From a bacterium (lineage in GTDB: Bacteria > Zhuqueibacterota > Zhuqueibacteria > Residuimicrobiales > Krinioviventaceae): a stretch of DNA of 44,805 bases. Below, piece after piece: positions 16,829 to 41,370 of the stretch (within the stretch, counting starts at the first letter, position 1; the number at the start of each line of letters is the position of its first letter). Below the pieces are notes generated by a model. The model was given only the letters and a program-made list of their open reading frames with translations, did not search any database and had not been told where the DNA came from. The position numbers were made by a program, and so were the translations under genes. The stretch spans positions 1 to 44,805 of the forward strand of contig JAKQIY010000063.1 of the NCBI GenBank assembly GCA_029561455.1, written 5' to 3'.

Positions 16829-16940
16829 GTAGGTCGGGCCTGTGGCCCGGCAATATGGGTACCGGATGGATGTCCGGGGATACCATCCGCACCGGATAAA
16901 TATCCCGCGCGTTCAGGTCGATCATTGTGTTTTCCCGGTG

Positions 16941-16992
16941 CGTCTCGATACGTCCGGTCTCGCTGTGCTCGACCGTCCTACTCGACGACCGG
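16941..16992 (+). repeat. 52-bp repeat family A, copy 1
   Basis: This unit begins CGTCTCGATACGTCCGGTCT and ends CTACTCGACGACCGG. Near-identical units lie at 17146-17197, 17794-17845 and 18088-18139. Diverged or cut forms lie at 17726-17778, 36733-36780, 38207-38224 and 38577-38632. The centre can fold (GGTC with GACC, TCGA elements). All copies are in intergenic DNA. Confidence 0.85.
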
Positions 16993-17145
16993 GATTGTAC
17001 CAAAAAATTTGGGTAGGGTGGGATTCTATCCCACCATTTTATGAACGCTTTGCGTTCAGTTTGTAGGTCGGGCCTGTGGCCCGGCAATTTGGGTACCGGA
17101 AGAATATCCGGCGCGATCAGAGCCGATCATTATGTTTTCCCGGCA

Positions 17146-17197
17146 CGTCTCGATACGTCCGGTCTCGCTGTGCTCGGCCGGACTACTCGACGACCGG
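17146..17197 (+). repeat. 52-bp repeat family A, copy 2
   Basis: Same unit as at 16941, with GGCCGGAC replacing GACCGTCC in the second half. Together with the paired-hairpin element at 17217-17340 it forms a roughly 195-bp block that is repeated at 17794-17987. Confidence 0.85.
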
Positions 17198-17216
17198 ACT
17201 AGAGTGTAACCACTTC

Positions 17217-17340
17217 ATAGCCACGACCTTCAGGTCGTGGGATAAAAAAAACAAAAACAAGGCTTTAGCCTAAATTTGAATTTGACTAAAGTCAATTTTT
17301 TTTAAGTTGCATTTATCCACGTCATAAATGACGTGGCAAT
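17217..17340 (+). repeat. paired-hairpin element, copy 1
   Basis: A 124-bp element in four parts. The left arm is CCACG-ACC-TTCA-GGT-CGTGG (17221-17240). The core is GGCTTTAGCC then GACTAAAGTC, 13 bp apart. The right arm is CCACG-TCA-TAAA-TGA-CGTGG, ending GGCAAT at 17340. The two arms are inverted copies of one design with different inner stems. Read inward, the loops are TTCA on the left and TTTA on the right. Confidence 0.85.
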
Positions 17341-17793
17341 GAATAAAAAGATTCCTCCTCGCGATGCTCGTCGGAATGACAAAATACAGTGTGGTTCACC
17401 TGGGGTACGATTTTGGTATAAAGAAAAAGCCATGAATTCGAACCTGGCTCTATATTTTCCGAATCTGCGGCGAGGTGGACTACACTTTGTAGCGCTCATC
17501 CCGGGGCATGTTGTCTCAATATGGGCCGGTTTGCTTTTTTGCGGGCGAAGCATCTTTGGTGGGACCTGATTGTTATTTATAATTCACCTGGAACAGATGC
17601 TTCGCCCCTACCAAAAAATCAGATCATCCGGTCCCCGAGTAGAGCCTCTTCCGCTTTGCGGGATTTATCTTTACGAACCATATTGAGGGGACGGGGTCTG
17701 TTATCAATGAATTTTTTCCCCGGTTCATCTCGATACGTCCCGAAAGGTAAAGCAACGGGACTACTCGATGACCGGGCTTTTTTACTTGGTATA

Positions 17794-17845
17794 CGTCTCG
17801 ATACGTCCGGTCTCGCTGTGCTCGGCCGGCCTACTCGACGACCGG
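17794..17845 (+). repeat. 52-bp repeat family A, copy 3
   Basis: Same unit as copy 2, again followed within 20 bp by a paired-hairpin element. It marks the second half of a long local duplication. Confidence 0.85.
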
Positions 17846-17864
17846 ACTATAGGGTAACCACTTC

Positions 17865-17987
17865 ATTGCCACGACCTTCAGGTCGTGGGATAAAAAAAAC
17901 AAAAACAAGGCTTTAGCCTAAATTTGTATTTGACTAAAGTCAAATTTATTTAGTTGCATTTTTCCACGTCATAAATGACGTGGCAAT
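17865..17987 (+). repeat. paired-hairpin element, copy 2
   Basis: A 123-bp copy nearly identical to that at 17217-17340: the same left arm (inner stem ACC/GGT, loop TTCA), the same core and the same right arm (TCA/TGA). Here the left end reads ATTGCCACG, the mirror of the right end CGTGGCAAT. It was evidently duplicated together with family A copy 3. Confidence 0.85.
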
Positions 17988-18087
17988 GAAAGCGGGCAAT
18001 TTGGTTGCCGGACGAATGTCCGGTTATATCATCCGCACCGGATAAATATCCGGCGCGATCAGAACCGATCATTATGTTTTCCCGGTA

Positions 18088-18139
18088 TGTCTCGATACGT
18101 CCGGTCTCGCTGTGCTCGACCGTCCTACTCGACGACCGG
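18088..18139 (+). repeat. 52-bp repeat family A, copy 4
   Basis: Begins TGTCTCGATACG and ends GACGACCGG. The central part matches copy 1 (GACCGTCC). It is preceded by CCGGAC-GAAT-GTCCGG and CCGGAT-AAAT-ATCCGG hairpins. Confidence 0.85.
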
Positions 18140-18252
18140 GATGACACTTTTCATATCACATTTCACGTCTCTCGTCTCACGTTTCACGTCTCACCTTCCC
18201 CGATACAATTTTTTACAAAAAAAGGGATTGCTTTTTTGAAAAAAAGTAGTAC

Positions 18253-35615: not shown

Positions 35616-36581
35616 ATGCCGAACCCATCAACCCCGTCTGCAGATCGGCCGGATATTAACCGTCCGCCTCTTTCCCCGCATCGTTTCACTCACCAGGCAA
35701 TGGCAACGATATTTGAAATAATCATCGACCATCCCGACCGCGCCTATGCGCAGCAGGCGGCCTGGGCGGCTTTTCAGGTTGCCGATAACCTGGAAAAAGC
35801 GCTGAGCCGCTTTCTGGAATACAGCGATATATGCCGCATCAACAGCGCCAAAACCGGGGACAAACTGGTGATCGGCCTGGATGCCTTTACCTGCCTGCAG
35901 GAATGTAACCGCATGTATATGCTCACCGGCGGCGCGTTTGATATTTCCGTTGGCGCGTTGATGGACTGCTGGCTGGATAAAGACAAAAAATTAAAAAATC
36001 CTGCTGCGGAAGAACTGCAAGCTTTAATGCAGAACCGGGGTAAGACGTTATTATTACTGAATGATGCGGATTATTCGGTAGAAATAAAGCATTCGCCATT
36101 GCATATAGACCTGGGCGGCTTTGGCAAGGGCTATGCCGTTGACCGCATGGCCGAAAGCCTGGCGGAATGGGATATCGAAAATTATATTTTACACGGCGGC
36201 CTCTCTTCGGTGCGGGCGCATGGCGGCATGAGCGGGCAAACCGGCTGGCCGGTGTCGATCAGCAATCCCTTTCAAAATTATGCCCCGTTACGGCAGTTTA
36301 ATCTGCATAACCGTTGTATGAACGGCTCGGGACTGCAAAAAGGCAATCATATCATCGATCCGCGCAGCGGCCGGCCTCTTACTATTCAGCGCGCAGCCTG
36401 GGCGTTCTCGCCGGATGCCGCAAGCGGTGATGCGCTGTCCACGGCATTTATGGTCATGTCGCTGGATGAGATTGGGCAATTGTGCCGTACTCATCATGAA
36501 TTTCAGGCAGTTATCATCGAAATGGAGAACGCTCAGCCGGGCGCTGAAAAAGTTTATTACTATGGAGATATTGTGCAATAA
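35616..36581 (+). CDS. apbE: FAD:protein FMN transferase (ApbE family)
   Basis: A 321-residue ApbE-family protein that attaches FMN covalently to Thr/Ser of target flavoproteins. The family landmarks are present: AMATIFEI near the start, TGGAFDISVG, HIDLGGFGKGYAVDRM, HIIDPRSGRPL and SGDALSTAFMVM. No signal peptide is seen, unlike many periplasmic ApbE proteins, so it may act in the cytoplasm. It lies 12 bp after the membrane glycosyltransferase, with only a weak ribosome site. No target with the DxxSGAT-type flavinylation motif is found in the window. Confidence 0.88.
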   Translation: MPNPSTPSADRPDINRPPLSPHRFTHQAMATIFEIIIDHPDRAYAQQAAWAAFQVADNLEKALSRFLEYSDICRINSAKTGDKLVIGLDAFTCLQECNRMYMLTGGAFDISVGALMDCWLDKDKKLKNPAAEELQALMQNRGKTLLLLNDADYSVEIKHSPLHIDLGGFGKGYAVDRMAESLAEWDIENYILHGGLSSVRAHGGMSGQTGWPVSISNPFQNYAPLRQFNLHNRCMNGSGLQKGNHIIDPRSGRPLTIQRAAWAFSPDAASGDALSTAFMVMSLDEIGQLCRTHHEFQAVIIEMENAQPGAEKVYYYGDIVQ

Positions 36582-36790
36582 TGCCTGTAAATTGTTCCCT
36601 CAATGTTCTCTGCTCGCCCAGGGAATCCTTCCCAGGGCGCACAATAAGGCAGGACATGTTGTCCTGCTTAACGCTTTGCGTTCATAAAATGGTGGGATAG
36701 AATCCCACCCTACACACTTGTGCCCCGGTGGGAGTCTCGATTCGTCCGGTCTCACCAGACTCGACCTTCCTACTCGATGTCAGCCTTTCA

Positions 36791-36855
36791 TTTGTTCGTT
36801 GTCCCGCCTTCAGGCGGTTTTTGGTGTAACTGGCTAAAGCCAGGACTACAAACTG
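36791..36855. repeat. short paired-hairpin element, CTTCAG/CTTTAG type
   Basis: The left arm is CCGCC-TTCA-GGCGG (36804-36817). The right arm is CTGGC-TAAA-GCCAG (36830-36843), which read from the other side is CTGGC-TTTA-GCCAG. Both arms have related outer flanks (TTCGTTGTC against TTTGTAGTC). The stems differ by two compensated base pairs (T-A to C-G and G-C to C-G). Confidence 0.75.
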
Positions 36856-36863
36856 TAATTTTA

Positions 36864-36988
36864 ATTGCCACGACATTCATGTCGTGGTTTGAGGAAAGGA
36901 GATGAATGACTTTAGTCAAATAAGTTTATTGAGGCTAAAGCCTGGTTGTTTTGTTTGGGGTATTCCACGATCTAAAGATCGTGGCAAT
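36864..36988 (-). repeat. paired-hairpin element, copy 3 (inverted core)
   Basis: A 125-bp copy. The left arm is ATTGCCACG with inner stem ACA/TGT and loop TTCA. The core is in the opposite orientation to copies 1 and 2 (GACTTTAGTC first, GGCTAAAGCC second). The right arm has inner stem ATC/GAT and loop TAAA, ending CGTGGCAAT. Confidence 0.85.
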
Positions 36989-37178
36989 GAAAGGATTTTA
37001 GCTCGGTCTGGGAATCCTTCCCAGGCCGCCAAATACGGCAGGACATGTTGTCCTGCTGAACGCCTTGCGGTCATAAAATGGTGGGATAGAATCCCACCCT
37101 ACACACTTGCGTAAATAAAATGGTGGGTAGAATTTTGCCCTGCAAACTATACGGCAACATGCAACTAAACTAACTTCG

Positions 37179-37895
37179 TCACCGGCTCCCCGCCAATGCC
37201 CGTTTTATGCGCAGCAATTCCTTCAGCATATTCAACGGTGTGCGGCTCATGGATAACCGGCTATCCGGATCGGCGGTCCATTCGATGGGGAACTCGCAAA
37301 TTTTATACCCCTGCCTTTGCGCCCGCAAAATAATTTCGATATCAAACATAAAGCCATCAGTAATACACTCACCATACAATTGCCGGGCAATCTCTCCCTT
37401 GTAAATTTTCAATCCGCACTGGGTATCGGTAAAGCGCATGGGCAGCCCCATGAAGAGCAAGAGAATTTTCCTGAACACAAACGACGCGATGCGTCGCGGC
37501 AAGATATGCGGCGCAACGATCCGGCTGTGTGGCAAATAGCGTGAACTGTGGGCAATATCACAGCGGCCGTCCCGAATCATGTGCAGGCCGGCTGCGACAT
37601 TCGTGTATGGTATGGTGTTGCCGCTGTCGATGAACAGGACAACCTCGCCTTGCGAGTCTTTTATGCCGGTGCGGACTGCATGACCCTTGCCGCGGGTTGG
37701 CCGGTAGTCGATCACCCTTGCTGCCGGGCAATTGGCACTACGGGCAACCTGCACGGTGTTATCCTTGCTGCCGTCGCTGACAATAATGATTTCCCCGCGC
37801 AAATTATTATTATGTAAAAATGCCGCTGCATTGGCTAGGTCTTTGCCGATCTTTTCCTGTTCGTTAAGTACCGGAATGATAATTGAAATATCCAT
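37179..37895 (-). CDS. GT2 glycosyltransferase (polyprenyl-phosphate sugar type)
   Basis: A 238-residue family 2 glycosyltransferase resembling ALG5 and dolichyl-phosphate mannosyl/glucosyl synthases. The pattern is ISIIIPVLNEQEKI, VSDGSKDNT, RGKGHAVRTGI, VLFIDSGNT (metal-site region), FTDTQCGLKIYKGE and DGFMFDIEIILRAQR. It would load a sugar from a nucleotide donor onto a polyprenyl phosphate at the inner membrane. ATG 37895 is chosen because GGAG lies 9 bases upstream, inside a slightly longer GTG frame. It faces apbE and could feed the GT-C enzyme at 34005. Confidence 0.88.
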   Translation of the reverse strand: MDISIIIPVLNEQEKIGKDLANAAAFLHNNNLRGEIIIVSDGSKDNTVQVARSANCPAARVIDYRPTRGKGHAVRTGIKDSQGEVVLFIDSGNTIPYTNVAAGLHMIRDGRCDIAHSSRYLPHSRIVAPHILPRRIASFVFRKILLLFMGLPMRFTDTQCGLKIYKGEIARQLYGECITDGFMFDIEIILRAQRQGYKICEFPIEWTADPDSRLSMSRTPLNMLKELLRIKRALAGSR

Positions 37896-38740
37896 GAACG
37901 CAGGCTCCACAAAATGAACTCACTGGCAACAAGGGTAATGCTGTTATTGCTAATCTAGGAAATTTACATTGAATCGCAAGGGATTTCGTTTTTTGCATGA
38001 TGGGAAAATGGTAAAAAATTGTATCAAGTAATTCAAGCGCTACGCACCTGGAAATCAAAACGCCTGGCTCGCCCTGGGAATCCGTCCCAAGCCGCCAAAT
38101 AGGGCAGGACATGTTGTCCTGCTGAATTCAAGATCGCGCCGGATATGTATCCGGTGCGGATGATAAGGCCGAACATTTGGCCGTAAATTTATTTGCTTTG
38201 GCGGGCGTCTCGATGCGTCCGGTCATTATGATCGTCCCAGGGTTGCACCCTGGGATGCCCAAGGCCAGGAGGCTGTGCCTACTGCATACTCTTGTCCCTG
38301 ATCGCCCTGGATTTCATAATCCAGGGCGGATAGTAGATTGGGATTTCCAATCCCATAACGGGATTGAATCCCGTTTCCAAATTTGGCCCTGGACTAGGAA
38401 GTCCAGGGCCATCAACGCCACCTCGTATTGGGGGACGGTTCTGCAAAATAATAGATCGCCACCGGGCTTTGCTCCGGGACGATCATACCGGGAGGCTGTG
38501 CCTACTGTATATTTTTTGCAGGACAGCATGTCCTGCCTTAATGTGCGGACTGGGGAACATCCCCAGTCCGAGCGGGCGTCTCGATACGGGCCGGAAGATG
38601 AATCCCGCAAAGCGGGCCCACTCGACGACCGTTCGTTTTTTATGAGACCTGCTTGATGGCCGGATTTTCTATCTGCGTAAATCTGCGACATCTGCAGATA
38701 ATTCTTTATTAGAAAAAATCTGACGTTATTAGACATTTTT
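37896..38740. repeat. dense cluster of unlike short hairpins
   Basis: No gene is supported. Between about 38060 and 38640 many different perfect or near-perfect hairpins follow each other: GGACA-TGT-TGTCC (38104-38122), CCGGAT-ATGT-ATCCGG, CCCAGGGT-TGC-ACCCTGGG, AGGC-TGT-GCCT (twice), CCCTGGATT-TCAT-AATCCAGGG, GGGATT-TCC-AATCCC, ACGGGAT-TGA-ATCCCGT, CCCTGGACT-AGGA-AGTCCAGGG, GGACA-GCA-TGTCC (38518-38536) and CTGGGGA-ACA-TCCCCAG. Cut copies of family A occur at 38207 and 38577. The hairpins share a 3-4 base loop and 5-9 bp stem but not sequence. Confidence 0.8.
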
Positions 38741-38743
38741 CGC

Positions 38744-38772
38744 TTGCCAATTTTGCCGGACTTTTCTATATT
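38744..38772 (+). promoter_or_regulatory. promoter of riboswitch-btuB transcript
   Basis: TTGCCA (38744-38749), a 17-bp spacer and TATATT (38767-38772) form a good housekeeping-type promoter. The expected start is about 38780, just ahead of the riboswitch. Confidence 0.7.
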
Positions 38773-38787
38773 ATCAGCGATAAACTT

Positions 38788-38960
38788 TCCGGTTTCGTAA
38801 CGGAACTAACAGGGAAGCCGGTGCAAATCCGGCGCAGCCCCGCTACTGTAAAGGGATACAAGAGCCGCGCGTACAGGCCGCAGCTTGTACAGTCACTGGG
38901 AAACCGGGAAGACGCGGTTCAAGGCCATGCCCCAAGCCAGGAGACCTGCCGGAATGACAG
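38788..38960 (+). promoter_or_regulatory. cobalamin riboswitch
   Basis: The conserved aptamer pieces occur in order: GGGAAGCCGGTGCAAATCCG (38812-38831), GCAGCCCCGCTACTGTAA (38834-38851), CACTGGG (38894-38900) and the B12 box AGCCAGGAGACCTGCC (38935-38950). Adenosylcobalamin or methylcobalamin binding normally shuts off the downstream gene. The 230 bases from here to the receptor start carry no clear intrinsic terminator; GC-rich sequence near 38970-38990 could pair to hide a signal. The leader is long, and the switch mechanism is not resolved. Confidence 0.95.
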
Positions 38961-39192
38961 AGTGAGCAGCCTTCGCGGGTAAGGCGCGCCGATAACTTTC
39001 AGGATCAAAGCAATCAATCATTCACAAACAGCTTTGTTCATTCCTGCCGCTACAAGTTATTCATCTCTTTTTTATCATCCACTATAATTCATTGAATTTT
39101 GCATGACGGCATTGCACTTGCCGGAAAAGGATCGTTTCTGGTGTATTTTTGCCGGCCATTTAAAACCTGATTCCTTTTGAAAGTGAGGAGAG

Positions 39193-41370
39193 ATGAAAAA
39201 GCTTTATCAATTCACGGTAGTACTCGTATTTTGTTATGCGTTAACGTCTTTTCCCGTTATCGCGGGAACCATGACCGGTCGCGTGCTGGATATTGTTACC
39301 CGGCAGCCCATGCCGGATGTTAATGTGCAGGTGCAGGGCCAGGCAGCCGGCGCAGCTACCAATACCGACGGGGTCTTTCAAATTAACAATTTACCGGCCG
39401 GTGTTTACACTCTTGTTGTTTCCTGCATGGGTTATCGTGCAGAAATCATTCCTGATCTGCGCCTGGTCAATGAATCGGATAAAAATGTAGAAATTTTGCT
39501 GACGCCAACAGTTGTAGAGGGCAAAAGCGTTATGGTCACAGCCTCACGCAGCCGCTCGCTGCTGCGCGATATGCCGGTTTCCGGGGCGATCATTTCCACC
39601 GCCGAACTGCAGAATAAAACACCGCTCACCCTGGCGGAGGCTATGGCGCCGGTGTCGGGCGCTACGTTCAAAGCCTATGGTCAAACCGGGGCTATGGAGA
39701 CATTATCCCTGCGCGGTTCTTCATACGAACAGGTGTTGATATTGTGGGACGGCCAGCGTATCAACTCACCGCTTAACGGCGGCATCGACCTCGGCATTAT
39801 TCCCCTGCAAAGTATTGAAAAAATTGAGGTGGTGCAGGACGGCTATTCTTCGCTGTACGGCGCCGATGCTATGGCTGGAGTGGTCAACCTGGTCAGCAAG
39901 GAACCGGCAGCCGACGGCGCTCTGCATGGTTCGCTCAATGCCATGGTCGGTTCTTTTGGCCTGAGCAAAGAAGAATTGAGTATAAACCAGGGGCTGGGCG
40001 CTGTTAGTTATATGCTGGCCGCGCACCGCACCGACAGCGACGGCGATTTTGATTACCGTACCCCTGCTGCGCCAGGCGGCGCCGCTAAAACTCTACAGCG
40101 TGAAAATTCAGCGCTGGAGCAAAACGCTGTATTCGGCAGACTGGCCTGGACTATCTCCCCGGCCACCACAATCAACGCCCTCGGCGAATGGACCTCTACC
40201 GAGCGTGGCATTCCCGGAGCTTTGAATAATCCCACGGTTAACGGCAGCCAGGAAGATGAGACCGCCCGTTACCATCTCAATGTGGCTCATCGGCAGTCCC
40301 GCGCCTGGGCGCTGCGGGTGAACAGTTTTTACCACACCCATAATGTACACTATATCGATGAGAATCCCTGGTGGCCGACCGATAGCCATAATGACGCCGC
40401 GTCGGCGGGTGCGAGCCTGCAAAACGATCTGCAGTTCAGCCGACAGAAATTTATCGCCGGGGCAACTTTTCAGCAGGATAACGGCACAGGCAAGGATGTC
40501 GGCGAACATGAGCGCAGCAACACGGCGCTGTTTGCTCATGGCGAATTCCACCTGCTGCCGGCCATGTCTTCCTTGTCCCTCTTTGTTATGCCGGCTATAC
40601 GTTACGATCATTTCTCCGATTTCGGCAATACGATCAACCCGCGACTGGGGGTGTTGCTGGCCAGACCCGGCGCCGCTTACCTGGGAGTACGCGGCAGCAT
40701 CGGCCGCTCATTCCGCGCGCCGACGTTCAACGACCTGTACTGGAACGAAGATATGTACACCAAAGGCAACCCGGATTTAAAAGTGGAAAGTTCCGATAAC
40801 TATGAATTCGGTCTACGCGGCGCACTGCCGGTTATTGGTGGATTATCTATCGATGCCTGCTATTTTCATAAAGATGCTAAAGACTTGATCAACTGGGGAG
40901 TCGACGCCGCTTCCGGCAAATGGATGCCGCAAAACGTCAGTGCCGCGCAACTCAGCGGCGGCGAATTCAGCCTGTCTCTGCCGCATATCAGCCGCTATTT
41001 TTCGCTGGATATGAATGTAACGCGCCTGTCCGCTATCAATAAAAGCGGGGTTGCCGGCGTCAACGATAAACAGTTGATCTACCGCGCCCCGTGGTCCACC
41101 GGAGTGGTCGGCGGCGCAGCCTGGAAATCGTTGCACATCACCCTGACCATGACGTACCTGGACAAGCGTTATGCCGACGAAATGAACACCAAACGACTCG
41201 ATGCCTGCACCTTGCTGAACGCCGACCTGGCGCTACGTCCGTTGCCATATCTTAAACATGTCAGCCTGGTGTTATCCGTGTTGAATGTTGCGGATAAGGA
41301 TTATATCCTGGTCGACAGCTATCCCATGCCCGGCCGTATGCTGCGGGTCAGAACCGGGATTGAATTGTGA
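39193..41370 (+). CDS. TonB-dependent cobalamin receptor (BtuB-like)
   Basis: A 725-residue outer-membrane receptor. It has a signal peptide (MKKLYQFTVVLVFCYALTSF), then a CarboxypepD_reg-like domain (about residues 26-110, GTMTGRVLDIVTRQPMPDVN), a plug (about 115-230, VMVTASRSRSLLRDMPVSGA) and a beta-barrel ending RVRTGIEL. The N-terminal domain is the arrangement common in Bacteroidetes-like receptors. The cobalamin riboswitch ahead of it points to vitamin B12 or a related corrinoid as cargo. No btuCDF transport genes or cobalamin synthesis genes follow, so uptake across the inner membrane must be encoded elsewhere. GAGGAG lies just before ATG. Confidence 0.92.
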   Translation: MKKLYQFTVVLVFCYALTSFPVIAGTMTGRVLDIVTRQPMPDVNVQVQGQAAGAATNTDGVFQINNLPAGVYTLVVSCMGYRAEIIPDLRLVNESDKNVEILLTPTVVEGKSVMVTASRSRSLLRDMPVSGAIISTAELQNKTPLTLAEAMAPVSGATFKAYGQTGAMETLSLRGSSYEQVLILWDGQRINSPLNGGIDLGIIPLQSIEKIEVVQDGYSSLYGADAMAGVVNLVSKEPAADGALHGSLNAMVGSFGLSKEELSINQGLGAVSYMLAAHRTDSDGDFDYRTPAAPGGAAKTLQRENSALEQNAVFGRLAWTISPATTINALGEWTSTERGIPGALNNPTVNGSQEDETARYHLNVAHRQSRAWALRVNSFYHTHNVHYIDENPWWPTDSHNDAASAGASLQNDLQFSRQKFIAGATFQQDNGTGKDVGEHERSNTALFAHGEFHLLPAMSSLSLFVMPAIRYDHFSDFGNTINPRLGVLLARPGAAYLGVRGSIGRSFRAPTFNDLYWNEDMYTKGNPDLKVESSDNYEFGLRGALPVIGGLSIDACYFHKDAKDLINWGVDAASGKWMPQNVSAAQLSGGEFSLSLPHISRYFSLDMNVTRLSAINKSGVAGVNDKQLIYRAPWSTGVVGGAAWKSLHITLTMTYLDKRYADEMNTKRLDACTLLNADLALRPLPYLKHVSLVLSVLNVADKDYILVDSYPMPGRMLRVRTGIEL

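Follow-up and report, generated by a model that had tools for sequence, protein, structure and literature searches.

What kind of DNA sets some ten hairpins of one design, but of different stems, side by side between two genes? The question comes from a sequence-only reading of the window, by which we mean the whole 44,805-bp stretch analysed here, one complete contig (G000:C18) of the 5.85 Mb draft genome G000. The array lies between divergent genes, for a glycosyltransferase on the minus strand and a TonB receptor on the plus strand, and is upstream of both (Table 1). That reading had placed the hairpins at 37896–38640; hairpins are indeed present there, but the first begins at about 38067, and 37896–37910 is the end of the glycosyltransferase gene. 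The series itself is real. The interval 37911–38772 contains nine perfect hairpins with a stem of at least 7 bp, against 0.45 expected (maximum 3 in 100), and twelve perfect inverted repeats with a stem of at least 6 bp and a loop of 3–8 bases, against 1.4 expected, the expectations being taken from simulated sequence with the same dinucleotide content. Folded as single-stranded DNA, the array stretch reaches −149.8 kcal/mol (z = −10.7 relative to shuffles). In a check of coding potential, the open reading frames over the array gave no Pfam match.

The census of noncoding against coding DNA that had been suggested was run on about 1.54 Mb of the 5.85 Mb, a sample partly picked around hairpin-rich places, so that its densities are not genome averages: noncoding DNA holds 569 hairpins with a stem of at least 7 bp where about 138 are expected (about 4-fold), and coding DNA holds 737 where about 639 are expected, which is near expectation. 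Several of the array's hairpins recur elsewhere in other combinations, as had been noticed. When the recurrent hairpins are read together with their flanks, a common frame appears, consisting of a foot G[AC]TCG, a long hairpin of 9–12 bp with a 3–4-base loop, a spacer of about 9 nt (often ATAA) and a shorter hairpin of 5–9 bp. The stems had been described as unrelated in sequence, and their collapse to a single ancestral sequence would have spoken against that reading. Such a collapse is seen in part only: most stems fit a single two-hairpin frame, within which several loop and stem subtypes can be told apart, and unrelated families, those of other transposases, are present as well.

Table 1. 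Features of the hairpin array and its surroundings in window coordinates; bit scores are matches to covariance model R1.
Feature	Position	Strand	Basis or remark
Further bipartite unit of the array's family	36612–36667	+	R1, 79.1 bits
Two CCACG-NNN(loop)-CGTGG hairpins	36868–36887, 36965–36984		family surrounding the IS200-like Y1 transposase of L096
Further bipartite unit of the array's family	37001–37056	+	R1, 75.6 bits
Family 2 glycosyltransferase gene	37179–37910	−	flanks the array
Bipartite unit 1: foot GCTCG, imperfect long hairpin (38070–38094), spacer, short hairpin (38104–38122, GCAGGACATGTTGTCCTGC)	38067–38126	+	R1, 57.9 bits; sequence
Bipartite unit 2: foot GATCG, hairpin CGCGCCGGATATGTATCCGGTGCG, spacer gatgataa, hairpin GGCCGAACATTTGGCC	38132–38183	+	R1, 26.6 bits
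Fragment of the GTAG-containing CGTCTCGATACG...CTACTCGACGACCG repeat family	38196–38222	+	sequence, family list
Bipartite unit 3: GATCG, CGTCCCAGGGTTGCACCCTGGGATG, spacer, CAGGAGGCTGTGCCTACTG	38230–38284	+	R1, 22.3 bits, marginal; sequence
Bipartite unit 4: GATCG, CGCCCTGGATTTCATAATCCAGGGCG (38303–38328), TGGGATTTCCAATCCCA (38339–38355)	38300–38355	+	several dispersed copies
Bipartite unit 5, inverted: GATGGCCCTGGACTTCCTAGTCCAGGGCC, AACGGGATTCAATCCCGTT	38357–38414	−	
Degenerate bipartite unit 6: GATCG CCACCGGGCTTTGCTCCGGGAC ... ACCGGGAGGCTGTGCCTACTG	38454–38507	+	by eye; missed by the R1 model
Bipartite unit 7: GCTCG, CGGACTGGGGATGTTCCCCAGTCCG, cacattaag, GCAGGACATGCTGTCCTGC	38518–38573	−	R1, 83.3 bits
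Degenerate GGTCGTCGAGTAG...CGTATCGAGACG family element, inner hairpin CCCGCTTTGCGGG	38577–38631	−	GTGG replaces GTAG
Cobalamin riboswitch	38773–38967	+	upstream of the TonB-dependent receptor
TonB-dependent receptor gene	39193–41370	+	other flank of the array

The array comprises seven such bipartite units in both orientations, three of them weak or degenerate, and the mosaic is completed by two fragments from another repeat family, one that contains GTAG. Units 4 and 5 form an inverted dimer (REPIN-like, 38300–38414), whose dispersed copies are 78–94% identical and have unrelated flanks. Elsewhere in the window, hairpins of the CCACG-NNN-loop-CGTGG(CAATGA) family are found, in addition to the two in Table 1, at 17221–17983, 41511, 43560, 44686 and 44783; the family alternates with TTGACTAAAGTCAA and GGCTAAAGCC, and 1.56 Mb of sequence contain some 56 of its palindromic sites, or 112 if both strands are counted. 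Another dense mosaic, of GTAGGTCGGGCCTGTGGCCCGG, CGTCTCGATACG elements and CCACG hairpins, occupies 16829–18140, where the sequence is duplicated over 160 bp with 96% identity, the two copies being 648 bp apart.

Is the shape truly kept while the stem letters are free, as had been claimed? A search by a regular expression of the foot plus the distal spacer, in which no hairpin was demanded, gave 59 matches in about 1.54 Mb; these are bimodal, with 27 having at least 6 of the 9–10 possible pairs, whereas none of the 38 matches in simulated sequence rises above 5 pairs. The covariance model R1 was seeded with eleven hand-picked units, and its alignments lean to structure. Across 107 distinct matches to it, pairing is found in 95.1% of the stem cells, and two-sided changes occur at 18 of the 19 pairs. 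Cells with a two-sided change number 348 against 101 in shuffles, and pairing falls to 42–47% when the partner is slid by one column; the units of other genomes gave the same result under both controls. Because these alignments were obtained by fitting to the model, the argument is carried by the slide and shuffle controls together with the structure-free search, and these demonstrate that shape is conserved with the sequence free.

How then do the stems come to differ? Among the closest copies (distance ≤7), 55 cells are changed in one arm and 7 in both, and two-arm changes accumulate with distance. This pattern is that of ordinary mutation with selection for pairing and argues against a process rewriting both arms at once, since the nearest copies differ mainly in one arm. 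Of the suggestion that some process creates or selects short inverted repeats, the half concerning selection appears to stand and that concerning creation de novo does not. A mutational process such as template switching or quasipalindrome correction, through which intergenic DNA would gain new perfect inverted repeats, would be in keeping with stems that are perfect and diverse and with two-sided changes that are common over long distances. It is nevertheless very unlikely, given that the hairpins have foot, spacer and loop classes in common, that the flanks of copies are unrelated, that the units adjoin RAYT genes, and that one-arm differences among the closest copies are the opposite of what concerted correction predicts; for the units described here, the common frame refutes it. 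Concerted arm correction, considered as the origin of the stem diversity, likewise finds no support in the one-arm excess among the nearest copies. From their common foot, spacer and loop classes and their adjacency to RAYT genes, the hairpins look instead like copied mobile elements, whose shape would be held by selection for a transposase substrate.

Stems that covary would also be expected if the hairpins were RNA-level signals for the neighbouring genes (transcription terminators, attenuators or structures that stabilise mRNA), and terminator-like sites are somewhat in excess in 36500–39200 (10 found, 3.2 expected). These sites, however, are weak and mostly outside the array, nearly all array hairpins have no T tract, and the array is upstream of both divergent genes, so that the arrangement of a rho-independent terminator, in which a T tract comes after the hairpin at the 3′ end of a gene, is not seen. 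G-T pairs make up 3.3% of the stem cells; changes giving a G-T pair account for about one third of one-arm changes, with no clear excess over transitions (the expectation being our own estimate), and so low a G-T share does not point to selection at the RNA level. The syntenic site in the sister species G001 bears on the same point. There, both flanking genes are retained and bound a 791-bp spacer, which keeps the cobalamin riboswitch and has no units, and therefore the array is lineage-specific in where it lies and is dispensable for the riboswitch. At 58–59% protein identity G001 is too diverged to give an exact empty site, and no transposition event was observed at nucleotide resolution in this comparison. 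An RNA-level function for the hairpins is, on these grounds, very unlikely.

The units are numerous: R1 detects 98 of them in the same genome at E ≤ 1e-3. Among the 40 genomes of relatives searched, the one of the same genus has 31; three more have 20, 9 and 8, and the remainder 0–6 each, a patchy spread as for mobile DNA. Of 66 units, 64 lie in noncoding DNA; they also cluster, 40 of the 66 having another unit no more than 600 bp away where chance would give 8.8. Within a unit, the loop of one hairpin is associated with that of the other, the mutual information being 2.52 against a maximum of 2.42 in 2000 shuffles. It is the loop classes that are associated: identical loops in hp1 and hp2 of one unit were counted in 7 of 40 cases, which is not significant (shuffled maximum 10). 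Scans of named genomes gave no match to the ATGTT-type unit as a DNA pattern and none to the TonB receptor as a protein, and a plasmid collection gave none to the array or to a relative's unit.

Which enzyme could copy such units? A Pfam search of the genome detects seven Y1 (HUH) transposases, and two further RAYT homologues are present. The HUH motif (HxH) and the catalytic Tyr are invariant in all seven Y1 proteins, of which four pass the NCBIfam cut-off for a REP-associated tyrosine transposase, one passes that for IS200/IS605 and two fall below the cut-off. Common hairpin words occur on both sides of four of the seven Y1 genes, compared with 6 of 409 control genes, and by inspection L094, L092 and L090 adjoin units or GTAG repeats. 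The hairpin family differs from one Y1 gene to the next. GTAG, absent from the foot of the array's frame, is present only in other families of this genome (L090, L092, L095), and the CGTCTCGATACG...CTACTCGACGACCG family represented in the array is also found beside the RAYT in L092. The frame of the array is that flanking the RAYT at G000:C28:68456–69043 (L094), to whose units unit 2 is the closest subtype (compare L094 8395–8448). A search of PDB sequences with this RAYT gave no match at 0.01. Among orthologous RAYTs at L091, L149 (G001) and L153 (G002), with 67–69% identity, the hairpins agree in their loop, ATAAAG/CTTTAT, and in their outer stem, GTGCA..TGCAC, and differ in the inner four base pairs.

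In its own genome, L094 is the only RAYT directly flanked by the frame of the array, and the loops there are of a minority subtype (CATTCG/TATTCA). The common loop subtypes (ATGTT, TTCATA) adjoin a RAYT only as remnants in G001, where a unit (L227 1443–1498) adjoins a RAYT remnant (1499–1654) with the subtype of the window's unit 5 on the opposite side. Inverted units stand on both sides of a RAYT gene fragment in G007 (L232), and in G031 (L216, L217) units adjoin a RAYT homologue whose protein is 54% identical. Homologues of the L094 clade elsewhere have two-hairpin units with wholly different stems, often with a CTC foot, for example CGTTCCCAAACTCCAGTTTGGGAACG...TCTTGAAGCTCTTGCTTCAAGA in G007. 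In a strict automatic test, a two-hairpin unit was present at 13 of 20 L094-clade loci, at 25 of 428 control genes, which were drawn from the unit-rich genome G000 itself, and at none of 14 other Y1 genes. The seven clade loci that the test missed include L094, and in several of them a unit was seen by the model or by eye. Some of the unit-bearing genomes have few or degraded RAYTs. Two L094-clade RAYTs not listed by the Pfam search are found at G000:C36:362988–363473 (L214) and 386811–387296 (L215); one of them has an internal stop, and further two-hairpin units (CAGCCGGAGGCTG and TGCCAAGCCGGAGACTTGGCA) lie nearby.

Other single-strand recombination sites, such as integron attC-like cassette sites or IS605 ends whose gene cassettes have been lost, are likewise two-part and act as folded single-stranded DNA, and sites of this kind serve HUH as well as integron systems (PMC8266576). 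Here, however, no cassettes are present between the units, the neighbouring proteins are RAYTs, and two hairpins are unlike the one bulged hairpin of attC, which makes this origin highly improbable. The array units are also not an autonomous IS200/IS605 insertion sequence, as they are 50–115 bp long and have no gene. We conclude that the array is very probably a mosaic of non-autonomous REP-type elements, in which bipartite units of a single RAYT-associated family predominate and elements from other RAYT families are interspersed.

It is known that TnpAREP recognises the folded single-stranded REP strand-specifically, with the foot motif guiding cleavage, and that the foot and one base in the loop are critical, changes in the stem being partly tolerated (PMC8266576). 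By analogy, we infer that the L094-type RAYT recognises the fold, that it actually transposes the units and that one particular strand is used. Each hairpin family would most likely be the non-autonomous substrate of a RAYT. The Y1 (HUH) transposase would recognise the unit in its folded single-stranded form by the foot (G[AC]TC in the array, CTC in related systems), the loop class and the two-hairpin geometry, and would cut the unit and rejoin it into new intergenic sites. The stems would drift by ordinary mutation, because, as we propose, their letters count little in recognition, and would stay paired in the lineages still being copied. If the rules of TnpAREP are valid for the L094 clade, the foot, loop class and geometry would be checked and the stems would drift, which is what had been noticed at the outset.

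How does the array compare with the known REP systems? GTAG-type REPs, BIMEs and REPINs are mobilised by RAYT (TnpAREP), for example in Escherichia, Pseudomonas and Stenotrophomonas (PMC3733652, PMC2817692, PMC3116915, PMC8266576). Like them, the elements described here are short extragenic palindromes of high copy number with their own Y1/HUH transposase beside each family, and they form inverted dimers and clusters, occur as several families per genome and show complementary stem changes. Unlike them, the main unit of the array consists of two different hairpins on the same strand with a G[AC]TCG foot (CTC in relatives), whereas the published GTAG repeats are single hairpins, among which head-to-tail pairs are rare. 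In the wide sense the array consists of REPs, being a repeated intergenic palindrome with its own flanking Y1/HUH transposase (a REPtron) and dispersed inverted dimers. The GTAG REP superfamily is defined by GT[AG]G at the 5′ foot, and the foot of the array was tested and is different, G[AC]TCG. The array is therefore filed among the wide-sense RAYT-associated REP elements, set apart from the GTAG REPs.

Closer relatives may be sought among the REPtrons of TnpAY1 subclass 2.6 (RAYT group 5), described as mostly from Bacteroidetes and as having 'atypical secondary structures' without GT[AG]G (PMC6006769). L094 resembles this subclass in forming a REPtron without GTAG, and its motifs NHLH and YIHDNP are close to the signature NH[LIV]H and YIH[QN]NP; it differs in having WK where subclass 2.6 has WQ, the comparison being one of motifs alone. 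A two-hairpin architecture is not described for these atypical structures in the portion of that paper at hand. The GTAG-tag residue code given there (PMC6006769) fits the seven Y1 proteins roughly, their number being too small for a test.

L095, in comparison, fits TnpAY1 subclass 2.4, with double-foot GTAG...CTAC repeats (GTAGAGACAGGTCTGAGACCTGTCTCTAC) and an in-frame VSTIDGPVST insert between HUH and Tyr; in-frame insertions of repeats in the transposase gene are a hallmark reported for that subclass. The gene (L095 6008–6640, on the contig G000:C68, about 111 kb) carries copies of its own GTAG repeat in frame (VSTIDGPVSTIDGPVSTDRPVST). A CGTC-like motif in the CGTCTCGATACG family recalls the CGTC-tagged REPs, palindromes with an unpaired tag; those were reported without a transposase (PMC3733652), whereas the CGTCTCGATACG repeats adjoin a RAYT (L092). 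The REP-like palindromes of Caldithrix abyssi are similarly intergenic and from a little-studied phylum, but form one family with a fixed stem AACCGTT, with no transposase link reported in the available part of their description (PMC5317091).

REPs, REPtrons, several families per genome, in-frame insertions and RAYTs with non-GTAG structures have been described already (PMC3733652, PMC6006769), and for a bipartite unit with a G[AC]TC or CTC foot no description was found in the open-access literature. The biology is therefore known in kind, and the bipartite CTC/GATC-foot unit is a variant of it for which we found no such description and whose mobility is suggested by its distribution and neighbours. 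An evenly balanced proposal, with equal chances of being right or wrong, is that one RAYT clade uses a bipartite substrate, in which two different hairpins of a related loop class share a strand and the foot is CTC/GATC, and that its geometry-based recognition is so loose that the stems are particular to each genome. Such elements would make up a separate REP type whose recognition code is not that of other REPs and which is spread over a class of bacteria.

The usual description of a REP is that of a single hairpin with a GTAG tag. A RAYT clade with two-hairpin units, another foot and stems that drift freely offers a natural series of substrates, from which it may be learned which parts of the fold are checked (foot, loop, spacing) and which are ignored (the stem letters). 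One genome can, moreover, host at least seven different hairpin–transposase pairs together, which explains hairpin-crowded intergenic stretches that would otherwise resemble unknown regulation.
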